From Bacteriovoracaceae bacterium (lineage in GTDB: Bacteria > Bdellovibrionota > Bacteriovoracia > Bacteriovoracales > Bacteriovoracaceae), in the NCBI GenBank assembly GCA_017858255.1, contig JAFMBV010000021.1:1-45910 (forward strand): a stretch of 45,910 bases of DNA. Reading direction: 5' to 3'. The translations under genes and the position numbers were made by a program. This document shows positions 950 through 12,644 of the stretch, in pieces. Every line of letters starts with the position of its first letter. The stretch's first letter is position 1. The notes under the pieces were generated by a model. It was not told where the DNA came from. It saw only the letters and a program-made list of their open reading frames with translations, and did no database searches.

Positions 950-1594
950 ATGGTCAGAGACTTTTTCCAAGATCTTATTACCTTTCCTACTCTTTTTACC
1001 AAGAGTAGTTTTTGGCGCAAACTCAATCTGCGTTGGCAAGGTCCTCGCCCAAGTCTTGCCCTTCGTCTCAAGTTCTTAAGAGACACTCCCCTTGATATTT
1101 CAAATCAGGCAACAATACGTCTGCTCACCTTTGAGGCCATCAAGTATATTGGAGAAAAAACGAATTACTTCAATCGACAGGTTATTAAAGAAAACGAAAA
1201 AGAAGACCACAATCTTTTAGAGGCCAGTTGGCTGAAGTTTTATCCCCATGAAGTCACCATTATTAAGATACAAAATATACAAAATGAAAATTTCATCTCA
1301 AAGCACCACCATGGTGGACCATATAGAGGGGCTTCACTTAAAGGTCTTAGGTCTCAAATTACAAAGTTATGTTTTGAGGCCCGTAAAAAGGGGCTCTCTG
1401 TGACTGAAGTTCAGATTATCCACACTCACCCTTCAGTAGAGGCCATCATTGAAGATGGTAAAGAATCTTCTTTTATTTTTAATGGATTAAGCACAAGTGA
1501 TATTCAATTAGGAAAAACACTGGCCCCCTTCGTTCCTTACCCCTTACGGGTTAAGGCAGTCACTCCGGCGGCCAATTACTCTATGCTTTTTTAA
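950..1594 (+). CDS. Divergent JAMM/MPN-like protein (putative metalloprotease fold)
   Basis: A 214-residue protein with no signal peptide. The start is fixed by AGGAGGA at 939-945. The C-terminal half resembles a JAB/MPN domain: H158-T-H160-P, then S181-T-S-D184, which matches the HxH...SxxD zinc motif, and E101 could be the upstream glutamate. The canonical spacing between the second His and Ser is 7 residues; here it is 20, so the loop carries an insertion. The basic N-terminal ~50 residues (FWRKLNLRWQ region) are unassigned. It follows the aldolase gene and meets pepN tail to tail with a 4-bp overlap. Activity is not established. The fold assignment rests on the motif only, and a structural JAB domain without catalysis is possible. 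Confidence 0.5.
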   Translation: MVRDFFQDLITFPTLFTKSSFWRKLNLRWQGPRPSLALRLKFLRDTPLDISNQATIRLLTFEAIKYIGEKTNYFNRQVIKENEKEDHNLLEASWLKFYPHEVTIIKIQNIQNENFISKHHHGGPYRGASLKGLRSQITKLCFEARKKGLSVTEVQIIHTHPSVEAIIEDGKESSFIFNGLSTSDIQLGKTLAPFVPYPLRVKAVTPAANYSMLF

Positions 1595-4254
1595 TCTTTT
1601 ACAATCTTAGAGACAATCTCATAAACATTCTTTGAGAGACCATCTAGTTCAAGGATCTGCTCAAGTTCTTTGCCCATGAGTGCTTTAAGAGGTTTTGTTA
1701 GTCTTTTATAATCTTTAAAAGAAGAGGCCAGACGAGAGGCCACTTGTGGATTAATCCCATCAACTTCTATAATCTTTTGGGCCATAAACTTATAGCCTCG
1801 TCCTGATTCATGGTGAAATTGAACATGGTTGCGACTAAATCCACCAAGTAATGAGCGCACAAGGTTTGGAACATTCTTGTCATAAACAGGATCATTCTCT
1901 AGCTCCAACACTCTATTAAATGTTTCATCATTAGACGAAGAGCTGCAAACAACTAACCACTTTTGAATAACAAGAGTGTCTTTTTGCCATTTTGCATAAA
2001 AATCTTTCGAGGCCTTTTGAAAAGAGTCCCCTCCAATATGACTTAAAACGCTTAGACCTGAGAGTTCCTCAGTCATATTGGCCGCTTTCTCAAAATGAGT
2101 TTGAGCTATTTTCGTGACAGCATCGACTTCGTCATCATCATCGAGGTGAGCGAGCATACCCAAAACTCGTGAACGCAAGTTTCTTTTCCCAACAGAAATA
2201 GGATCAAGATGGTAAGGTCCAGGCGTAGAATTTGATTCATATACTTTTATGAGATCATCTCTAAACATCGACGCTAATTTTTTACCCACAAATTTTCTAA
2301 CTTCATAGATCGCCTTGTAATCAACGGGATTATGTTCTTGTGCCAATAAAGTAACACTTGGAATACTGAGGAGCATAGACTTTACAGCAGGATCTAAAGA
2401 GTCATCTTTTACAAGCAGACCAAATGATTCGATAAAGCCCGTATCTAATACCAGCTCTTTCCCCTCTAACTTGTCTCTTAAAAGATGAGAAATAATCTCA
2501 CTACTTGCCCTTTGAACGGCTTCATAACGATTAAAAAGATCATTATCATTGGCCATCATAAAGAAGAACTCATTTAGTTTATAGGGTGCCTTCACTCTAA
2601 TCGGTGCACTAAAACCACGATTCAAACTTACGATTGGTTTCTCTTTAACTCCGGTAAAAGTAAAAACATGTTCCTTTTCTTTTATATGAAGGAGACCTTT
2701 ATCAATTTGTGTTTGTCCTGCTTCTTTGAGGTTTAAAGGAAGATCATTTCCTTGATGATCAAGAAGACCAATGGCCAATGGAAAGTGATAAGCTTCTTTA
2801 TGGGCCTGCCCTGGTGTGGGCGGACAACTTTGGTCAACACTCAAAGTGAGAGTTTCTTTTGATTCATCATGCACCCACTTCACATCTATTTGAGGCGTCC
2901 CTGCTTGGTTGTACCAATTCTTAAACTGCTTAAAGTCAAAGTCTCCATTGGCAACACTCATGGCATGAAGAAAGTCCTCAGTCGTCACTGCTTGCCCATC
3001 AAAGAGCTCAAAGTACTTGTCCATACCCTTTCTAAAGCCATCTACGCCGAGCATAGTCCGAACCATGCGAATAATCTCAGCTCCTTTTTCATAAATTGTC
3101 GCTGTATAGAAGTTATTAATTTCAATATAAGAATTTGGTTTAATGGGATGAGAAGTAGGGCCAGCATCCTCAACAAACTGAGAAGTTCTAAGCCTTTGAA
3201 CATCTTGAATTCTTTGAACAGTTCTAGAATTAAGATCACTTGAAAATTCCTGATCTCTATAAACAGTTAGTCCTTCTTTTAGAGTCAATTGAAACCAGTC
3301 TCGACACGTGATGCGGTTGCCTGTCCAATTGTGGAAATACTCATGACCGACAACTGATTCAATCCCAAGGAAATTGTCATCAGTGGCACTCTCTGGATTT
3401 GCCAGTACATAAACCGAGTTAAAAATATTAAGACCCTTATTCTCCATCGCTCCCATATTGAAAGAGTCAACGGCGACGATCATGTAAATATCTAAATCGT
3501 ATTCTAGGCCAAAAGTATCTTCATCCCATTTCATAGATTTCTTAAGAGACTCCATTGCATGGTCACAACGACTTTCATTTCCTTTGTCACAGTAAATTCT
3601 GAGATCAATCTTACGGCCGCTATGGGTTGTGTAACTGTCTCTCACTAACCCCAAATTTCCAGCGACCAGAGCATAAAGGTAACTTGGTTTTGGAAAGGGA
3701 TCTTCCCATTCCGCCCAATGAAGGCCTCCATCGAGTTGGCCCTCACCGATTGGATTGCCATTGCTTAAAAGAATGGGAAAATCCTCAAGAGGAGCAATAA
3801 TTTTGGTGGTGAATCTGGCCATGACATCTGGACGGTCTAGATAATAAGTAATTCTTCTAAAACCTTCTGGTTCATTTTGAGTGCAAAAAATATCCCCAGA
3901 TTTATAAAGACCATCTAAGGCCTTATTACTTTCAGGATTGATGGTATTTTCAATTTCAAGAGTAAATTCGTCTGGAACATTGTTGAGAACTAGCCCCTCA
4001 GAAGAAATTTGATATTCGCCTTCTTTAACAAGCTCTCCATTTATCTTTGCCGTTACAAAAGTAAGTTCCTCGCCATCTAGAATAAGGTTATTCTCTTTTT
4101 TAGCAGAGGCCGGGTTTCTCTTAACAGTTAGGCGAGACTCCACTTTAGTCGCTGTTGAGTGCAAGTGAAATGTAAGGTGTACCGTATCAATGGAGAATGG
4201 ATGGGCCTGGTAATCAGCTAAATGAATCGTCCGTGGTGTCTCAGTTTTAAGCAT
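1591..4254 (-). CDS. pepN: Aminopeptidase N (M1 family)
   Basis: Zinc aminopeptidase that removes N-terminal residues from peptides, probably cytosolic since no signal peptide is seen. The 887-residue length matches the E. coli PepN subfamily (about 870). Diagnostic residues are GAMEN at 268-272, zinc site HEYFH at 304-308 and the third ligand E327, 19 residues after H308 as in E. coli PepN. The start is supported by a GAGGGAT ribosome-binding site just upstream on the minus strand. The gene is monocistronic as far as can be seen. Its stop codon overlaps the stop of the convergent JAMM-like gene (TTAA shared), and it is divergent from the PilZ gene. Confidence 0.96.
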   Translation of the reverse strand: MLKTETPRTIHLADYQAHPFSIDTVHLTFHLHSTATKVESRLTVKRNPASAKKENNLILDGEELTFVTAKINGELVKEGEYQISSEGLVLNNVPDEFTLEIENTINPESNKALDGLYKSGDIFCTQNEPEGFRRITYYLDRPDVMARFTTKIIAPLEDFPILLSNGNPIGEGQLDGGLHWAEWEDPFPKPSYLYALVAGNLGLVRDSYTTHSGRKIDLRIYCDKGNESRCDHAMESLKKSMKWDEDTFGLEYDLDIYMIVAVDSFNMGAMENKGLNIFNSVYVLANPESATDDNFLGIESVVGHEYFHNWTGNRITCRDWFQLTLKEGLTVYRDQEFSSDLNSRTVQRIQDVQRLRTSQFVEDAGPTSHPIKPNSYIEINNFYTATIYEKGAEIIRMVRTMLGVDGFRKGMDKYFELFDGQAVTTEDFLHAMSVANGDFDFKQFKNWYNQAGTPQIDVKWVHDESKETLTLSVDQSCPPTPGQAHKEAYHFPLAIGLLDHQGNDLPLNLKEAGQTQIDKGLLHIKEKEHVFTFTGVKEKPIVSLNRGFSAPIRVKAPYKLNEFFFMMANDNDLFNRYEAVQRASSEIISHLLRDKLEGKELVLDTGFIESFGLLVKDDSLDPAVKSMLLSIPSVTLLAQEHNPVDYKAIYEVRKFVGKKLASMFRDDLIKVYESNSTPGPYHLDPISVGKRNLRSRVLGMLAHLDDDDEVDAVTKIAQTHFEKAANMTEELSGLSVLSHIGGDSFQKASKDFYAKWQKDTLVIQKWLVVCSSSSNDETFNRVLELENDPVYDKNVPNLVRSLLGGFSRNHVQFHHESGRGYKFMAQKIIEVDGINPQVASRLASSFKDYKRLTKPLKALMGKELEQILELDGLSKNVYEIVSKIVKD

Positions 4255-5421: not shown

Positions 5422-6624
5422 ATGAATATTGAGACGATGCGTGGCTATAAAATGGTTCAAAAAGCCAATATATTAAGGGCCAATAATCTCTATCCCTTTT
5501 TCCGCTCTATTGGTGACTCTGAAGGAACTGTTGTTAAAGTTGATGGTCTCGATCAGATCATGATTGGCTCAAACAACTACTTAGGGCTCACACACCATCC
5601 TCATGTAATAGAATCAGCAATCAAGGCCATTGAGAAGTACGGTACTGGTTGTACAGGCTCTCGCTTTCTCAATGGAAACCTAACCATCCATGAAGAACTA
5701 GAAGACCGTCTTGCTAAGTACGTGGGTCATGAAGCATCCCTTGTCTTCTCAACAGGTATGCAAACGAATTTAGGAGTAATCTCTGCCCTTTGCGGCCCTA
5801 AAGATTGCTTATTATTTGATAGCGAAAACCATGCCTCACTCATTGATGCCTCTCGCTTGGCACTAGGTCCTACCTTTAAATACAAACACAATAACATGGA
5901 ATCCCTAGAGCAAGTGCTTGCAGAGAATGTTAATCGCTTTAATCATGTGTGGATTGTTACAGATGGTGTTTTCTCAATGACAGGAGAGCTTGCCAAACTT
6001 CCAGAGATCGTAGAGCTCGCAGAAAAATACGGTGCTCATGTTTACAATGATGATGCTCATGGTATCGGTGTAATGGGAAGTCAAGGCCGTGGAACACTTA
6101 CTCATTTTGATCTTGTGGATAGAGTTGCCCTTAACATGGGAACCTTCTCAAAATCATTTGCCTCTATTGGCGGCGTGATTACAGGTTCTGTAGAAATGAT
6201 TGATTACATTAAACATAATGCTAGAAGCTTCATGTTTTCAGCTTCTATGCCACCATCAGCAGTCGCAACGGTAACTGCATGTTTGGACGTTATCGAACAA
6301 GACACAAGCCTTCATGATAGACTTTGGGCCAATGTAGATATGATGCGCCAAGGTTTTAAAGATATTGGCTTTTATACTTACAACTCTCAAACGCCAATCA
6401 TTCCTATTTTCATCGGCGATGAAATGAAGGCCTTAACCGTAACAAACTACCTTAAAGATAACGGTGTTTTTGCCACTCCAGTTCTGCCTCCAGCAGTTCC
6501 TAAAGGAGAGGCCCTCATCCGTACGAGCTATATGGCCTCTCACTCAAATGAAGAGCTGACAAAAGTTCTAGAAGTCCTTAAGAAGGCAAAACAGGAATTC
6601 GATATTCCTGCAACAATCCATTAA
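5422..6624 (+). CDS. spt: Serine palmitoyltransferase (alpha-oxoamine synthase family)
   Basis: PLP enzyme that condenses L-serine with a long-chain acyl-thioester to give 3-ketosphinganine, the committed step of sphingolipid synthesis. The 400-residue protein has the full alpha-oxoamine synthase layout: GSNNYLGL, GTGCTGSRFLNGN, cofactor-stacking His137 (ENHASL), DDAHG (D210/H213) and the Schiff-base lysine K244 in GTFSKSFASIGG. The LYPFFRSI opening and HNARSFMFSASMPPSA segment resemble Bacteroidota-type SPT more than glycine C-acetyltransferase or BioF. The strongest support is context: ceramide synthase-like and ceramide reductase-like genes follow at +9 and -4 nt. A purine-rich GAGAGA precedes the ATG. 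Confidence 0.85.
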   Translation: MNIETMRGYKMVQKANILRANNLYPFFRSIGDSEGTVVKVDGLDQIMIGSNNYLGLTHHPHVIESAIKAIEKYGTGCTGSRFLNGNLTIHEELEDRLAKYVGHEASLVFSTGMQTNLGVISALCGPKDCLLFDSENHASLIDASRLALGPTFKYKHNNMESLEQVLAENVNRFNHVWIVTDGVFSMTGELAKLPEIVELAEKYGAHVYNDDAHGIGVMGSQGRGTLTHFDLVDRVALNMGTFSKSFASIGGVITGSVEMIDYIKHNARSFMFSASMPPSAVATVTACLDVIEQDTSLHDRLWANVDMMRQGFKDIGFYTYNSQTPIIPIFIGDEMKALTVTNYLKDNGVFATPVLPPAVPKGEALIRTSYMASHSNEELTKVLEVLKKAKQEFDIPATIH

Positions 6625-6633
6625 GAGCTGAGT

Positions 6634-7758
6634 ATGAGTAAAGTTGTCATTAGTCCTGTGCAGACCTCTAGAGATCAAAAGGTCTTTATCAATCTCCCTT
6701 GGACAATTTATAAGAATGACCCTAATTGGGTTCCTCCCTTAAAGATGGCGATCAAAGATCAGCTCAATCCTAAACATCCTTTTTACGAAACTGGAGAGGT
6801 CCAATCCTTTTTGGCCACAAAAGATAAAGAGCCGATTGGCCGTATTATGGCCATAAATCCAATCGCCTATAATAAATTCCACGAGTCTTCGGTTGGTTTT
6901 TTTGGCTTCTATGAATGTACTGCTTCAATGGAGGCATCAAAGGCACTTTTTGAAGCCGTTGAAAATTGGTGCAAAGATAAAGGCCTTACCCAAATGATGG
7001 GCCCCTTTAATCTTTCTTCAAATTATGAATGTGGTCTACTTGTTGAGGGATTTAATGATCCTCCGCAAGTCATGATGACCTACAATCCCAAGTATTACAT
7101 GAAACACTTGGACGAGAATCAATACACAAAGGCAAAAGACCTCTTGGCCTATGATGTTGATTACCCGGTTACGATGCCCGAAATTATCGTAAAGATCGCT
7201 GCACGTGCAGAAAAGAAAAATAAAATCACCTACCGTTATCTAGATAAAAAAGACTTTGAAGGTGAAGTTGATCGCATGCTTGATATATACAACGACGCAT
7301 GGGAAAAAAACTGGGCCTTTGTTCCCATGACAGAAAAAGAGTTCCGTCATACAGCAAAGGATCTTAAAACTGTTGTAGATGAACGCTTGGTTGTTTTTGC
7401 AGAAGTTGACGGTGAAGCAGCTGGCTTTATTGTAGGCCTTGCTGATCTTAATCAAGTTTTTAAACAAATCCCTAATGGTTCTCTATTCCCTACAGGACTC
7501 TATAAACTGTTAACATTTAAGAAAAGAGTTAACCGTATGCGTGTTCCTACGATGGGAGTTAAGAAGAAATTCCGCAAACTGGGTCTTGAAACACTTCTTT
7601 ATAGAAAGTGTCAGCTCAATGCTGAAGAGGCCGGTATCTACAGAAAGTGTGAGGCCAGCTGGATTCTTGAAGACAACCCAGACATGAATAAGCCACTTAT
7701 TCGTATGGGGTTTGACCCATACAAGACTTATAGAATTTACGAAAAAAATCTCACATGA
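6634..7758 (+). CDS. bcerS: GNAT-fold acyltransferase, putative bacterial ceramide synthase
   Basis: A 374-residue cytosolic GNAT-type protein. The opening block LPWTIYKNDPNWVPPL, then FLATKDKEPIGRIMAI and GFFGFYEC, then a second acetyltransferase-like half with GVKKKFRKLGLETLLY, are features of the acyl-CoA N-acyltransferase family to which the Caulobacter bacterial ceramide synthase belongs. The proposed reaction is N-acylation of 3-ketosphinganine or sphinganine to (keto)ceramide. It sits 9 nt after spt and overlaps the next gene by 4 nt, so the three are probably translationally coupled; its own ribosome-binding site (GAGCTGAG) is weak. Family is clear; substrate is inferred from gene order. 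Confidence 0.7.
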   Translation: MSKVVISPVQTSRDQKVFINLPWTIYKNDPNWVPPLKMAIKDQLNPKHPFYETGEVQSFLATKDKEPIGRIMAINPIAYNKFHESSVGFFGFYECTASMEASKALFEAVENWCKDKGLTQMMGPFNLSSNYECGLLVEGFNDPPQVMMTYNPKYYMKHLDENQYTKAKDLLAYDVDYPVTMPEIIVKIAARAEKKNKITYRYLDKKDFEGEVDRMLDIYNDAWEKNWAFVPMTEKEFRHTAKDLKTVVDERLVVFAEVDGEAAGFIVGLADLNQVFKQIPNGSLFPTGLYKLLTFKKRVNRMRVPTMGVKKKFRKLGLETLLYRKCQLNAEEAGIYRKCEASWILEDNPDMNKPLIRMGFDPYKTYRIYEKNLT

Positions 7759-8747
7759 AAATTCTGATTACTGGGGCCACAGGCTTTTTAGGAAGTCATC
7801 TCTACGAAGGTGCTCTTTCTGATGGCATTGATTCAATAGGACTTGCCCGCAGTTCAAAGAAATGGCAAGAATTTCAACTTCCAGGAGAACCTCTTATTGG
7901 TGACCTCTCCGAAGAGTCCATCAGTGAATGGATTGAAAAACTTCCCGATGACCTGACTCACGTGATTCACACGGCAGGAATTGTTCATTCCTTTGATAAA
8001 CTTATTTTTCAAAAGATCAATACCCTTGCAACAATTGACCTTTTTAAGAAGCTCACAAAGAAGTACCCAAAACTGCATTTCGTTTTTATCTCGAGTTTGG
8101 CCGCCGTTGGACCTTCACTTCCTAATATTCCCCATGACGAGATGACTTCTTTAAACCCTACTTCTCTTTATGGAAAATCTAAAAGAGAAGCAGAGGACTT
8201 TCTCAAACAAAACCTTCCTCCAAAATGGAGCCTAACAATCATTAGACCTCCCATGGTGATAGGACCAAGAGATCCAGCCGTTCTAGATATCTTTAAGATG
8301 GTAAAAGGTAGACTCGTACTTCAAACAGGGTTTAGAGGCACAAAAAAGCTATATAGTTTTGTGTGCGTTCATGATGTCGTTGGAATTATAAAAGAGAGTC
8401 TAAAAAAAGATCACCAAAACCTTGCCGTTTATTTCCCCTCCTATCCCACCGATCATTCATTTGGTGAGATTATTGAAGTCATTAGTCAGCAGATGGGAAA
8501 AAAACCATTTTTTCTTCCTATCCCCTTTCCAGCAATATCAGCACTTGCCCATTCCATGGCATTTTTAAGGAAGTTTTTTCCGATTGAACTTCGATTAACT
8601 CCCGATAAACTCCATGAACTAAAACCACAGGCGTGGACATGCTCGGGTGAAAAAGCAAATAGTGAGTTAGGGCATCAATATCTTTGGTCTTTAGAAAAAA
8701 CGGTTGCTGCGACTTTGGAAGATTACCAAAAACGAAAGTGGCTTTAA
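7755..8747 (+). CDS. cerR: NAD(P)-dependent epimerase/dehydratase-family reductase, putative ceramide reductase
   Basis: A 330-residue extended short-chain dehydrogenase. It has the Rossmann motif TGATGFLGSH at the N terminus, the SSLAAVGPS strand with catalytic serine, and the YGKSK (YxxxK) catalytic pair. In bacteria that make ceramide by the SPT/bCerS route, a reductase of this extended SDR type reduces the 3-keto group of the (oxidised) ceramide; the ATGA overlap with the upstream gene supports that role here. Other SDR functions such as sugar-nucleotide epimerisation cannot be excluded from motifs alone. The gene ends tail to tail with the next gene on the minus strand, sharing TTAA. Confidence 0.7.
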   Translation: MKILITGATGFLGSHLYEGALSDGIDSIGLARSSKKWQEFQLPGEPLIGDLSEESISEWIEKLPDDLTHVIHTAGIVHSFDKLIFQKINTLATIDLFKKLTKKYPKLHFVFISSLAAVGPSLPNIPHDEMTSLNPTSLYGKSKREAEDFLKQNLPPKWSLTIIRPPMVIGPRDPAVLDIFKMVKGRLVLQTGFRGTKKLYSFVCVHDVVGIIKESLKKDHQNLAVYFPSYPTDHSFGEIIEVISQQMGKKPFFLPIPFPAISALAHSMAFLRKFFPIELRLTPDKLHELKPQAWTCSGEKANSELGHQYLWSLEKTVAATLEDYQKRKWL

Positions 8748-10375
8748 GTATCTTCCTCCTCTTTAGAAGTATCCTTTGCGACAGAAGAGTCATCTGAACT
8801 CTTTTTTGATTTTTCTTCTACTTTCTTTTCTAGATTCTCTTCAAATTTTATTTCTTTATGAATAAGCTGATTGATGGCCACACGCATATTAGAGCGCTCT
8901 CTTTCTCCAAGGCCATGCACAACACCACGATATTGAAAACATCCCGGATTGGCCCAGTCCTTCTCATCAAGGGCCTCAATAACGGTCAAATTAAAAGGAA
9001 CAGGTTTTTCTACGCTCAGGATAGACCACAAGGCCACTTCTTGTTCAGATTGAAATTTTACCCAAGTTTCACAGATCGCTTTAAATTGAATGGGAAATGG
9101 ATACTCCATGAAACTCTCTGGTGAATCCTTTTGAATATAAAAACGCTTCTCCTTACTGTGAAAGGAGTGACTCATATCGTGACTTTTTTCTCTTCCGTAT
9201 TTATTTTCATAGGTTTCACAAAAAGTTAGAAGTTGATCAAAGCTAAACTTTTCATCCCAAGCAATAATACGCGAATAATTATAATGTTTTTGAAGGTGCT
9301 CTGAAGTCCACGCCGATTGAAAGATCACAATAAAAGGATTAAAGTTGGAGATGTCCTCTGTTTGTTGCATGATCTCCCCAAGCTCACCTTCTGATTTCTC
9401 AGGACATTGGTAGCATAGGATGCCTGGCCTCACTCTATTGATCAAGTTGTCTCTATTTTTAAGAGTACGATAAAAGCGAATTGAGTAAGGGTAACTATCA
9501 ATAGGTTTTATCGCCTGATCAAGAATATTCATCTCTTGGTCAATAACCATTAAACGAGTCCTCTTTGCCCCTCCTCCATTTTCATGCTTTTCGATATAAG
9601 CTTTTATTTTCTTCTTTTTACTGTCCATGGATTCTCTCTGCCCATGCTCCTGCCAAAATGCTTTCTTCTTTTGATCATTTGTATTTTTCTTAAGTTGTTC
9701 TGCTTTTTCTTTCGCGTCTAAAAAGACGAAGCTTAAATCACTCACATAAGCGGCTTCATAGTAGTAATTAAAGTCTAACCGCCGTTCTAAACGAAAGTAA
9801 TCTATGGGAAAGCTATCCTCGAAGTGATGATCAAGAAGTAGTTCTTCCTTGTTGGGTGGCATAAAGTCATGCTCAACATGGACGTAAGTCTCAGTTAAGT
9901 AACCTATGCGAAATAAACTCTTGGCCGTCACTTGCAATGGCACTTTCATTACTTCGGCCTTAGCAAACTCTCCTTCGGGAAAAATGCCGCCTTTTAATAA
10001 AAATAACGACTGAGCAATAATGTCGCTATATTCAGGAGATTTAAAATGAGTGAAAGGAATGCCAAGAGTTTGACTCTCTTTAAGATGGCCTAGGTCTGCT
10101 TGATAATCCCAAAGACCAATAAGACTTGGCCCTCGATCAAAAAGTCTTGGTAAACTCCTGGCCACTGTCATCATCTTAAGTGGATTAGAGCTGTAATCTA
10201 AAAAGGCGATATTGGGCAACTCTCTAACGATTTCGGAAGATAAACGCTGAAAATTATCCGAGTCCTCGTGCCAAAGAGTTTTAAATTCAAACTCTTCATC
10301 TGAGCCTTCACGAAAACGCTTTTTCATATCCTCAAAGTACGTAATGTCTTTGCCAACGTAGATAACTTTAATCAT
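8744..10375 (-). CDS. Atypical double receiver-like signalling protein
   Basis: 543 residues, cytosolic. The N-terminal ~125 residues look like a response-regulator receiver: MIKVIYVGKD opens strand 1, NIAFLDYS holds a candidate phospho-Asp, and SLIGLWDY occupies strand 4. A second receiver-like segment (about 275-400) starts at TRLMVIDQEM and has FIVIFQSAW, but CYQCP stands where the acceptor Asp should be, so it is probably a pseudo-receiver. The segment between is unassigned. The last ~35 residues are charged low complexity (Lys/Glu/Ser). No DNA-binding, kinase or GGDEF domain is visible. There is no Shine-Dalgarno; TAAAAT ends 6 nt before the ATG. It lies between the ceramide operon and the lipid-modification genes. 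Confidence 0.5.
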   Translation of the reverse strand: MIKVIYVGKDITYFEDMKKRFREGSDEEFEFKTLWHEDSDNFQRLSSEIVRELPNIAFLDYSSNPLKMMTVARSLPRLFDRGPSLIGLWDYQADLGHLKESQTLGIPFTHFKSPEYSDIIAQSLFLLKGGIFPEGEFAKAEVMKVPLQVTAKSLFRIGYLTETYVHVEHDFMPPNKEELLLDHHFEDSFPIDYFRLERRLDFNYYYEAAYVSDLSFVFLDAKEKAEQLKKNTNDQKKKAFWQEHGQRESMDSKKKKIKAYIEKHENGGGAKRTRLMVIDQEMNILDQAIKPIDSYPYSIRFYRTLKNRDNLINRVRPGILCYQCPEKSEGELGEIMQQTEDISNFNPFIVIFQSAWTSEHLQKHYNYSRIIAWDEKFSFDQLLTFCETYENKYGREKSHDMSHSFHSKEKRFYIQKDSPESFMEYPFPIQFKAICETWVKFQSEQEVALWSILSVEKPVPFNLTVIEALDEKDWANPGCFQYRGVVHGLGERERSNMRVAINQLIHKEIKFEENLEKKVEEKSKKSSDDSSVAKDTSKEEEDT

Positions 10376-10434: not shown

Positions 10435-11262
10435 TTAAAAATTCCAGCTGACCTTAGGCCCATAGATACCATTGTGGCGTAAAAAGCCAATCTGCGCCTG
10501 ATGCTCGAATACCCACTTGTAAAATGGATCATTCTTATCGTAGCCAGCGGCCTTCCTAACGCCCTCACTTGCCCATGCAGACAATAAGAAGGAGCCGGTA
10601 ATGTCGGAAAACCAATGCTTTTCATCTTGAATTCTTTGCATAGAGGAGAGAATTGTAAGAGCAAGGGGAACACTTGACCATGCTGGTCCATAAAACTGGA
10701 GGGTTTTAAAAAACAGTGTCATATAAGGTATGACATGACCGCTAGGCCATGAAGAATCTCCTCGAAACTGACTCTCCCAGAAGGATAAGTCTCCTGTCTT
10801 TGGACGATTGTGGACATCGATATAACTTAAAAGACCTGACTCACTTAAGGCCAAGTACATGGACGCGAAGTATTCTTTGGCAAACTGAACATGGTGGTTA
10901 TTGCCCGTTTTCTTACCATAATAATAAAAACCTGCATGTAGGAGTGGAAAGTTAAAGGCCACACCGAGATCTCCGACATTATTAACGATATTGGCGATCT
11001 TGGTGCCTCCATATCTTTCTTTGATACGGTCATCATTTTCAAAGGCATAAATATTAAGAGGGACACCCCAAGCAGCATGGTAGAGGTTATTGACTTCTGT
11101 AAACTGTAAATAACTTCCTCGAAAAAGCAGCGAAAATGCTTCTTTAGTGTCAGACCACACAACCTCTTTTGTCAGAGGACTCCCTTTTTGATTAGGCGAT
11201 TCTTCTGCAAAATTCTGATAAAGGTAAGAACAACAAAGAACTAAGAATAAAAACTTCTTCAC
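10435..11262 (-). CDS. Secreted PAP2-family phosphatase
   Basis: 275 residues with an N-terminal signal sequence (hydrophobic FLFLVLCCSYLY). Phosphatidic-acid-phosphatase type 2 motifs 2 and 3 are present: PSGH at 173-176 and R210-x5-H216-x3-D220 (QRIQDEKHWFSD). Motif 1 is reduced to R153-P154 without the usual upstream lysine. Family members remove phosphate from lipid phosphates or polyprenyl diphosphates on the periplasmic side. The GTG start directly abuts the stop of the fatty-acid hydroxylase gene (TAAGTG), so the two are one operon. A lipid phosphate is therefore a likely substrate, possibly a sphingoid or phosphatidate species; this is inference. Confidence 0.75.
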   Translation of the reverse strand: MKKFLFLVLCCSYLYQNFAEESPNQKGSPLTKEVVWSDTKEAFSLLFRGSYLQFTEVNNLYHAAWGVPLNIYAFENDDRIKERYGGTKIANIVNNVGDLGVAFNFPLLHAGFYYYGKKTGNNHHVQFAKEYFASMYLALSESGLLSYIDVHNRPKTGDLSFWESQFRGDSSWPSGHVIPYMTLFFKTLQFYGPAWSSVPLALTILSSMQRIQDEKHWFSDITGSFLLSAWASEGVRKAAGYDKNDPFYKWVFEHQAQIGFLRHNGIYGPKVSWNF

Positions 11263-11877
11263 TTACTTTTGTTCCTTTTTAGGACCTGTCACGGTTCCGA
11301 GAACATAATCCCAAAGAGGGTTAGATACACCGTACTTCGATTCTTCTTTAGCATGATGATGGCGTAAGTGATATTTTCTCAAATAGCGACCAACTGTTGA
11401 TGTCATAGGGAAATGGTGAGTTGCATAGTGAATATAGTCGTAGCAAAGATAACCAACAATGAAGAAGCCCATAAAAGACTCAAGGTATAGTGCTGGAACA
11501 AACAAACTAAATAGCCCATAAAAAAGTGCCATCAAAACAACTGCAGGAACTGGAGGCATCACTAAACGGGTAGCATCATCTGGTTGGTCATGATGAATGC
11601 CATGAAAAAGGTAGACCATTCTTTTAGAAAAATCACTCTTACCTGGAAAATGGAAGAGGTAACGGTGGACGGCATATTCAGTTATAGTCCAAATAATAAG
11701 ACCAGCAACCGCAGTCATTAGAAACTCTGAAAAAGAGAGTCCTTTATTGTAGGCCTTTCCAAGTAACCAAATAGTAAATGGTCCCCACATAACGAGTGGA
11801 ATAATGGGATGGACATGAGTCATAGACTCAAGAAGCGAGTTTTCAAACAAGCGAATAGATTGTGTTTGCTTGGACAT
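11263..11877 (-). CDS. Fatty-acid 2-hydroxylase (sterol desaturase superfamily)
   Basis: A 204-residue membrane di-iron enzyme. All histidine boxes are visible: H71-x4-H76 (HRYLFH), H92-x2-HH96 (HGIHH), H150-x3-HH155 (HYATHH) and H170-x2-HHH (HLRHHH), set among four hydrophobic segments. This compact pattern is that of FA2H/Scs7-type hydroxylases, which 2-hydroxylate the N-acyl chain of ceramides; no cytochrome b5 domain is fused. GAGG precedes the ATG. It is the first gene of a two-gene operon with the PAP2 phosphatase and lies 3 kb from the ceramide operon, so 2-hydroxylation of ceramide is the most economical reading. Carotenoid or sterol hydroxylases share the fold. Confidence 0.8.
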   Translation of the reverse strand: MSKQTQSIRLFENSLLESMTHVHPIIPLVMWGPFTIWLLGKAYNKGLSFSEFLMTAVAGLIIWTITEYAVHRYLFHFPGKSDFSKRMVYLFHGIHHDQPDDATRLVMPPVPAVVLMALFYGLFSLFVPALYLESFMGFFIVGYLCYDYIHYATHHFPMTSTVGRYLRKYHLRHHHAKEESKYGVSNPLWDYVLGTVTGPKKEQK

Positions 11878-11972
11878 TGGACCTCTTCCTTAAATTTCCT
11901 CGCTAGGAGGATGACTTTATTAATTCAGACACTTATACTGCAGGAGGCTATAAAAAAAAAGGTAAATTGTAA

Positions 11973-12644
11973 ATGAAACCAGTACTTTCTCCACTCTTTC
12001 TAAGCTTTGTCCTATGCTTTTTACACTGTTTTAACGTTTGGCCCGAGAAGGTCCTTACGGCGACAGAGATTACCGTTCGAAGTGTTAAAATTAAAGACAA
12101 GGTTTGGCCTGAAGTACATGCAAAGGCCCTCATAAAGGCCGACCCTCTCACGAGCGTGGCAATATTTGCGGCCTACGATTATCAGAAGAACTACATTCCA
12201 AAACTTATAAAATCAGAGGTATCCTCAGAAAAGGTCACCAAAACGAGCAATGCCACTGAGGTCAGCTACAGCATGGATATGCCGTGGCCTTTAGACGATA
12301 GTGAATATATTCATGGCCATAAACTTGAAAAGGTCGAAAGTGGTTACAAAGTCCGCTGGTACATGGTTAAAAGCAACGTTGCCCAAGATGTTCGTGGCCA
12401 TGCTCTTTTTGAGACCCACCCACAAAACCCAAATTACACCCTTTTGACCTACGTAAGTCTTATAAGCCCAAATTCATTTTTTGCGGGAATCTTTAAAAAA
12501 GTAATGGTTAGTGACCTTATCAAAAGTATTGAGGCCATTCGTGACACAACAGAGGAACTTTTAGAGAAGAACCCCCAACTAATTAAGAAATACCAAGACA
12601 AAATCAAAGTTGTCTTGGAAGGTAAGCCTGCTTATTTGAGATAA
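11973..12644 (+). CDS. Secreted START/SRPBCC-like lipid-binding protein
   Basis: 223 residues with a signal sequence (SPLFLSFVLCFLHCF) and then a mature domain. The pattern of strands AAYDYQKNYIPKLIKSEV, TEVSYSMDMPWPLDDSEY and YKVRWYMVKSN with a C-terminal amphipathic helix resembles START-domain proteins, in which the WPL...RDY-type stretch is typical. START domains bind a single lipid in a hydrophobic cavity. Its placement, divergent from the fatty-acid hydroxylase operon, suggests carriage of a hydroxylated or sphingoid lipid across the periplasm. The ribosome-binding site is weak (AAGGT); a 21-codon ORF ends by ATGA overlap with this start. Fold assigned from sequence feel only. Confidence 0.55.
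   Translation: MKPVLSPLFLSFVLCFLHCFNVWPEKVLTATEITVRSVKIKDKVWPEVHAKALIKADPLTSVAIFAAYDYQKNYIPKLIKSEVSSEKVTKTSNATEVSYSMDMPWPLDDSEYIHGHKLEKVESGYKVRWYMVKSNVAQDVRGHALFETHPQNPNYTLLTYVSLISPNSFFAGIFKKVMVSDLIKSIEAIRDTTEELLEKNPQLIKKYQDKIKVVLEGKPAYLR

Follow-up and report, generated by a model that had tools for sequence, protein, structure and literature searches.

The window, a stretch of 45,910 nucleotides from a 4.1 Mb assembly of a Bacteriovoracaceae bacterium (genome G000), carries a ceramide operon and, beside it, a block of three genes encoding a PAP2-superfamily protein, an FA2H/Scs7-type hydroxylase and a divergently transcribed, secreted START-fold protein (Table 1). In the operon, serine palmitoyltransferase (SPT) is adjacent to a GNAT-type bacterial ceramide synthase (bCerS) and an SDR-type ceramide reductase (CerR), the gene set by which the bacterial ceramide pathway is recognized. 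SPT orthologues share 58-89% identity over most of the order, strong orthologues of bCerS are present in 63 of its 71 SPT-encoding genomes vs 1 of the 58 that lack SPT (129 genomes in all), and CerR stands immediately 3' of bCerS in the window and in most neighborhoods inspected. PepN and the PilZ-like gene are found beside SPT in most of the loci inspected across the order, and the PilZ-like protein may be a regulator of the ceramide operon. Promoter and terminator scans returned matches at chance level.

Table 1. Features of the ceramide locus and of related loci discussed in the text; positions without a locus label refer to the window.
Feature	Position	Strand	Remarks
Aminopeptidase N (PepN)	1591-4254		flanks SPT
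PilZ-like protein, 254 aa	4424-5188		flanks SPT
Serine palmitoyltransferase (SPT)	5422..6624	+	best NCBIfam model SerpalmtaseCFB, 489 bits (below the cut-off of 640)
bCerS-like GNAT acyltransferase (bacterial ceramide synthase)	6634..7758	+	PF00583, E 1.3e-5
CerR-like NAD-dependent SDR (ceramide reductase)	7755..8747	+	PF01370, E 1.6e-21
ORF, 543 aa, family unassigned	8744..10375	-	between ceramide genes and PAP2-hydroxylase-START block
PAP2-superfamily protein, 275 aa	10435..11262	-	PF01569, E 1.1e-7; N-terminal signal-like segment
FA2H/Scs7-type di-metal hydroxylase, 204 aa	11263..11877	-	PF04116 (FA_hydroxylase), E 1.3e-20
Secreted START-fold protein, 223 aa	11973..12644	+	Sec signal ~1-24, START domain ~28-205
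Phosphonolipid head-group operon	G000:C151, L104:6578-13643		outside the window
START loci of genus g36	L070, L072, L073, L074, L089		diverged secreted START, SPT absent
Cysteine-rich protein, ~200 aa	L076:4033-4623, L078:9478-10095, L079:1457-2074		beside PAP2

The ORF coordinates bear out the layout given in the original prediction: the PAP2, hydroxylase and divergent START genes lie where it placed them, the GTG start of PAP2 abuts the hydroxylase stop with zero gap, and the hydroxylase, which was said to lie 2-4 kb from the ceramide genes, is found ~2.5 kb past the end of CerR. The divergent START and hydroxylase ORFs are 95 bp apart. The 543-aa ORF that intervenes is convergent with the ceramide operon, and Pfam and NCBIfam scans returned no family match for it. 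It was found in L065, L066, L067/L082, L083 and L086 and is missing from L081, L085, L087 and L088, being restricted to genera g1, g17 and g32 among the loci inspected; retained in close genera only, it is probably dispensable for the block.

The hydroxylase scores 74.6 bits against the Pfam FA_hydroxylase model (cut-off 31), and its residues 9-199 match the yeast Scs7 structures 4zr0/4zr1 with E ~1e-29, in agreement with the FA2H/Scs7-type enzyme originally proposed. Ten histidines (H71, H76, H92, H95, H96, H150, H154, H170, H173, and H174), in the Scs7-type arrangement HxxxxH, HxxHH, HxxxH, and HxxHH, are invariant in 30/30 orthologues and align with those of the Scs7 metal site. Assignment to the Scs7/FA2H family is strongly supported by these sequence features, and the enzyme shares with yeast Scs7 and mammalian FA2H both homology over the full length of the hydroxylase domain and the same histidine clusters; it differs from them in being bacterial and in consisting of the hydroxylase domain alone, with no N-terminal cytochrome b5 domain. 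The cytochrome b5 domain is present in animal and fungal FA2H and absent from the plant enzymes (PMC10002949), so its absence here is not disqualifying. Functional FA2H-like enzymes have also been reported from myxobacteria (PMC10002949), and that source cites Ring, Schwar and Bode (2009) for a tie between the myxobacterial homologues and sphingolipid formation. By their published description, these homologues resemble the window enzyme in being bacterial, FA2H-type, furnished with the histidine motifs and connected with sphingolipids, and they come from a different phylum. The hydroxylase is thus of a kind already known. Elsewhere, genome G000 carries three more FA_hydroxylase-family genes (C75, L111:6405-7166; C30, L112:1195-2127; C2, L004), one of which is followed by a hexapeptide acyltransferase gene, and these are possibly other lipid hydroxylases or desaturases.

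The START assignment comes from structure, although Pfam and NCBIfam cannot give it: neither database returned a START-family match for the window protein, a single-sequence PDB search also failed to recognize START, and one of 27 relatives touched Polyketide_cyc at a chance-level E of 0.09. A profile built from the 27 relatives found only two PDB matches, both of them weak and both START proteins (3qsz, E 0.11; PCTP, E 0.26). An AlphaFold model computed from six sequences (pLDDT 78.6) has the strand and helix order of the helix-grip fold; Foldseek placed CERT START domains at the top of its matches (E 1e-7, TM ~0.5-0.6), and VIA-align gave Z 18.0 to the bacterial START protein 3qsz, ~17 to polyketide aromatase/cyclases and 16-16.5 to CERT over ~172 residues (5jjd, 16.5), so that CERT scores below both 3qsz and the cyclases. 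Going by this model, the window protein has a START fold, and since polyketide cyclases score ~17 the comparison establishes the fold and not the ligand; sterols, phosphatidylcholine and polyketides are further ligands known for START folds. Because no START-family profile matches, we use the term START-fold for the protein and do not assign it to any named START family. Signal peptides are visible among its relatives, in line with the secretion originally proposed, and no lipobox occurs in 30 orthologues, features consistent with a soluble periplasmic protein. Two other candidates were rejected: the matches of SCO1 were weak and attributable to chance, and those of PRELI were weak, with START scoring higher.

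The PAP2 protein reaches 32 bits against PF01569 (cut-off 27.2), the only Pfam model that it matches at E ≤ 1, so PAP2_C, the sphingomyelin synthase family, is not hit; its best NCBIfam match is an undecaprenyl-diphosphate phosphatase model, at 31 bits vs a cut-off of 229. Three motifs were scored (KxxxxxxRP, PSGH, and SRxxxxxHxxxD). PSGH and RxxxxxHxxxD are intact in the relatives checked, and the lysine of KxxxxxxRP is replaced, by serine in 10/11 and tyrosine in 1/11, with RP kept and a histidine just upstream. Apart from its N-terminus the protein has almost no strongly hydrophobic stretch, a scarcity unusual among membrane-embedded PAP2 enzymes. The AlphaFold model has a pLDDT of 37, and we therefore make no claim about its fold. 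In genomes with PAP2 and no hydroxylase, PAP2 has beside it a cysteine-rich protein of ~200 aa that starts CxxC...CFC, family unassigned.

Across the order, the recurrent arrangement in these Bacteriovoracaceae-like bacteria is PepN–PilZ–SPT–bCerS–CerR…PAP2–hydroxylase–(divergent) START, which upholds the proposal that the block accompanies the ceramide operon. START and the hydroxylase are divergent on one contig in 37 genomes from 15 genera, out of 40 with both genes, the hydroxylase and PAP2 are same-strand neighbors in 38/40, and the hydroxylase lies 27-4890 bp from bCerS in 46/55; the maintenance of all three arrangements argues that the block is not a product of chance, and physically it is retained over 15-16 genera. 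That the six genes stand together, as the original prediction supposed, is therefore the majority pattern in the order, but it is not a strict one: in 16 of the SPT-encoding genomes the hydroxylase is present but START and PAP2 are both missing, and 10 lack all three. Some sphingolipid producers thus do without START and PAP2. START and PAP2 themselves are both present in 39 of the 71 SPT-encoding genomes, both absent from 26 and found singly in 3 + 3, a pairing much tighter than that of either one with the hydroxylase, and the two are still divergent in G073 and G063, where no hydroxylase gene separates them. Together with the 16 hydroxylase-only genomes, these patterns divide the block into two sub-modules, the hydroxylase and the START-PAP2 pair, and the co-occurrence shows START and PAP2 to be partners. 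The genomes of the order that have the hydroxylase and lack SPT (G012, G052, and G108) are incomplete assemblies (73-84% complete), and in G012 the 4,954-base contig stops just beyond bCerS.

To assess the association with sphingolipid synthesis more broadly, we surveyed 293 genomes of the phylum with completeness ≥85%, 126 with and 167 without SPT, calling presence at E up to 1e-90 for SPT, 1e-30 for the hydroxylase, 1e-15 for PAP2 and ~1e-20 for the START profile. The hydroxylase occurs in 83/126 SPT-encoding vs 2/167 SPT-lacking genomes (Fisher p 6e-38), PAP2 in 38/126 vs 0/167 (p 3e-16) and START in 48/126 vs 10/167 (p 7e-12), all three p-values ignoring relatedness. The expectation that hydroxylase and START orthologues would be found chiefly in genomes with SPT is thus largely borne out, though less fully for START, which ten SPT-lacking genomes also carry. 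Outside the order, SPT is present in 35/37 hydroxylase-bearing and 11/12 START-bearing genomes, and START is not adjacent to SPT in the loci inspected there; the 11/12 figure mostly rules out a house-keeping function of START throughout the phylum, with genus g36 as the exception. Nine of the ten SPT-lacking START carriers come from g36, and the tenth is G294. In the order set, 13/26 genomes of g36 have START homologues of 29-36% identity with SPT absent and different neighbors, so that the link to sphingolipids does not hold throughout the START family. In an unrooted tree that contains long branches, the START homologues of g36, together with those from outside the order and that of the SPT-encoding genome G057, split from the SPT-linked STARTs at a branch with 98/94 support. 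A conserved gene of ~200 aa (FxRAYTGWRASGAKE) precedes START in 4/5 of the g36 loci, L070 being the one without it.

Taken together, we think it fairly probable that the block serves to tailor and traffic ceramide, as a conserved module adjoining the ceramide operon in Bacteriovoracaceae-like bacteria. Dihydroceramide would be made by SPT, bCerS and CerR, and the Scs7/FA2H-type hydroxylase, seated in the inner membrane, would add a 2-hydroxyl group to its N-acyl chain; 2-hydroxylation of the ceramide acyl chain is what homology and co-occurrence suggest for this enzyme, and the hydroxylation role of the module is well supported. From the structural model we infer that the helix-grip pocket of the START protein would hold (2-hydroxy)ceramide or a derivative and carry it through the periplasm. 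The secreted PAP2 protein, its partner, would remove or exchange a phosphate-type head group, putatively on the same lipid or else on a feeding carrier lipid. In Caulobacter, CerR resides in the periplasm (PMC11087976), the compartment in which a carrier and a head-group enzyme of this kind would be well placed. By analogy with CERT and sphingomyelin synthase, one might go further and imagine a relay in which the periplasmic START protein passes (2-hydroxy)ceramide to an enzyme of PAP2 fold for extracytoplasmic addition or exchange of the head group, an extension that we regard as improbable. We know of no prior description of an extracytoplasmic START-to-PAP2 head-group step in the assembly of complex sphingolipids.

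The alternative that survives best limits sphingolipid tailoring to the hydroxylase and makes START and PAP2 a general envelope-lipid pair that adjoins it by chance, concerned for example with undecaprenyl- or phosphatidate-phosphate recycling and with a phospholipid-type carrier. Such a pair would accommodate the START homologues of SPT-lacking g36 and G294, the 16 SPT-encoding genomes with the hydroxylase and without START or PAP2, and the undecaprenyl-diphosphate phosphatase model as best NCBIfam match of PAP2, far under its cut-off; however, PAP2 never occurs without SPT phylum-wide, the block is physically kept in as many as 16 genera, and the SPT-linked and g36 STARTs fall on opposite sides of a supported branch, all of which leave this account unlikely, though deserving of serious attention. 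A second alternative keeps ceramide as the ligand and dispenses with transport between membranes: the START-fold protein would assist an enzyme or act as a sensor, for example as an SRPBCC protein of substrate-presenting or cyclase-like type, and would bind ceramide on behalf of PAP2 or the hydroxylase. In the structural comparison polyketide aromatase/cyclases do as well as START carriers, and the divergent gene arrangement is one common for regulators, but a protein with a secretion signal is unlikely to meet a hydroxylase that faces the cytoplasm and no cyclase catalytic residue was identified, and we give this role a low probability. More doubtful still is that the hydroxylase targets C4 of the long-chain base (phytosphingosine type) instead of the acyl chain, for although sphingoid C4-hydroxylases fall in the same Pfam superfamily, its nearest solved relative over the whole length is the 2-hydroxylase Scs7, in a comparison that held no Sur2-type sequence, and the two have the stretch HGxHHxxPxDxxRLVMPP in common.

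The sphingolipids of Bacteriovorax stolpii have 1-hydroxy-2-aminoethylphosphonate as head group and a 2-hydroxylated acyl chain. In G000, an operon outside the window encodes a TauD-type dioxygenase, an NTP transferase, a CDP-alcohol phosphatidyltransferase, LysE, a PEP mutase-NTP transferase fusion with the motif EDKIFPKTNS, a TPP decarboxylase and a class V aminotransferase; it is mostly conserved in L105, L106, L107 and L109 and partly in L108, and is likely a complete genetic basis for sphingophosphonolipids. Within the order, PEP mutase matches that pass the curated cut-off come from SPT-encoding genomes only (22/71 vs 0/58), in agreement with published accounts of a phosphonate head group on the sphingolipid of Bacteriovorax stolpii (PMC6148460, PMC5648825) and with the nucleotidyl-activation route of PMC6697681. 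We also considered whether the START-PAP2 pair is specific for phosphonate head groups and rejected this, since PAP2 is not associated with PEP mutase among the SPT-encoding genomes (10/22 with PEP mutase vs 32/49 without).

Among known START proteins, CERT (STARD11) shares the fold of the window protein and heads its Foldseek matches, with Z ~16 over ~172 residues, but identity is ~14%, and CERT is cytosolic, whereas the window protein is secreted and has no PH or FFAT parts. The Xanthomonas STAR-related protein 3qsz is a bacterial START and the best match both in structure and in profile searches, with a profile score short of significance and 17% identity; to our knowledge it has no sphingolipid context. 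The sphingolipid cluster of Caulobacter likewise links a ceramide operon to candidate genes for inner-to-outer-membrane transport, but in the accessible part of its description these are Lpt-like bridge candidates (LptC2/F2/G2) and a putative flippase, with no START found (PMC11324152), where the window block has START and PAP2. The sterol carriers BstA/B/C of Methylococcus were, like the START candidate, envelope lipid carriers of bacteria found by bioinformatics, but they have other folds (BstB PhnD-like, BstC TPAT T-component-like), bind sterols and are not START proteins (PMC10942540).

No flippase or carrier for bacterial sphingolipids had been identified (PMC11087976), and how these lipids reach the outer membrane from the inner one is described as unknown (PMC11324152). 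A sphingolipid-linked secreted START–PAP2 pair appears to be undescribed. The block described here supplies a conserved candidate carrier in the START protein, a genetic partner for it in PAP2, and a hydroxylase, together a candidate means of finishing sphingolipids and moving them from membrane to membrane.
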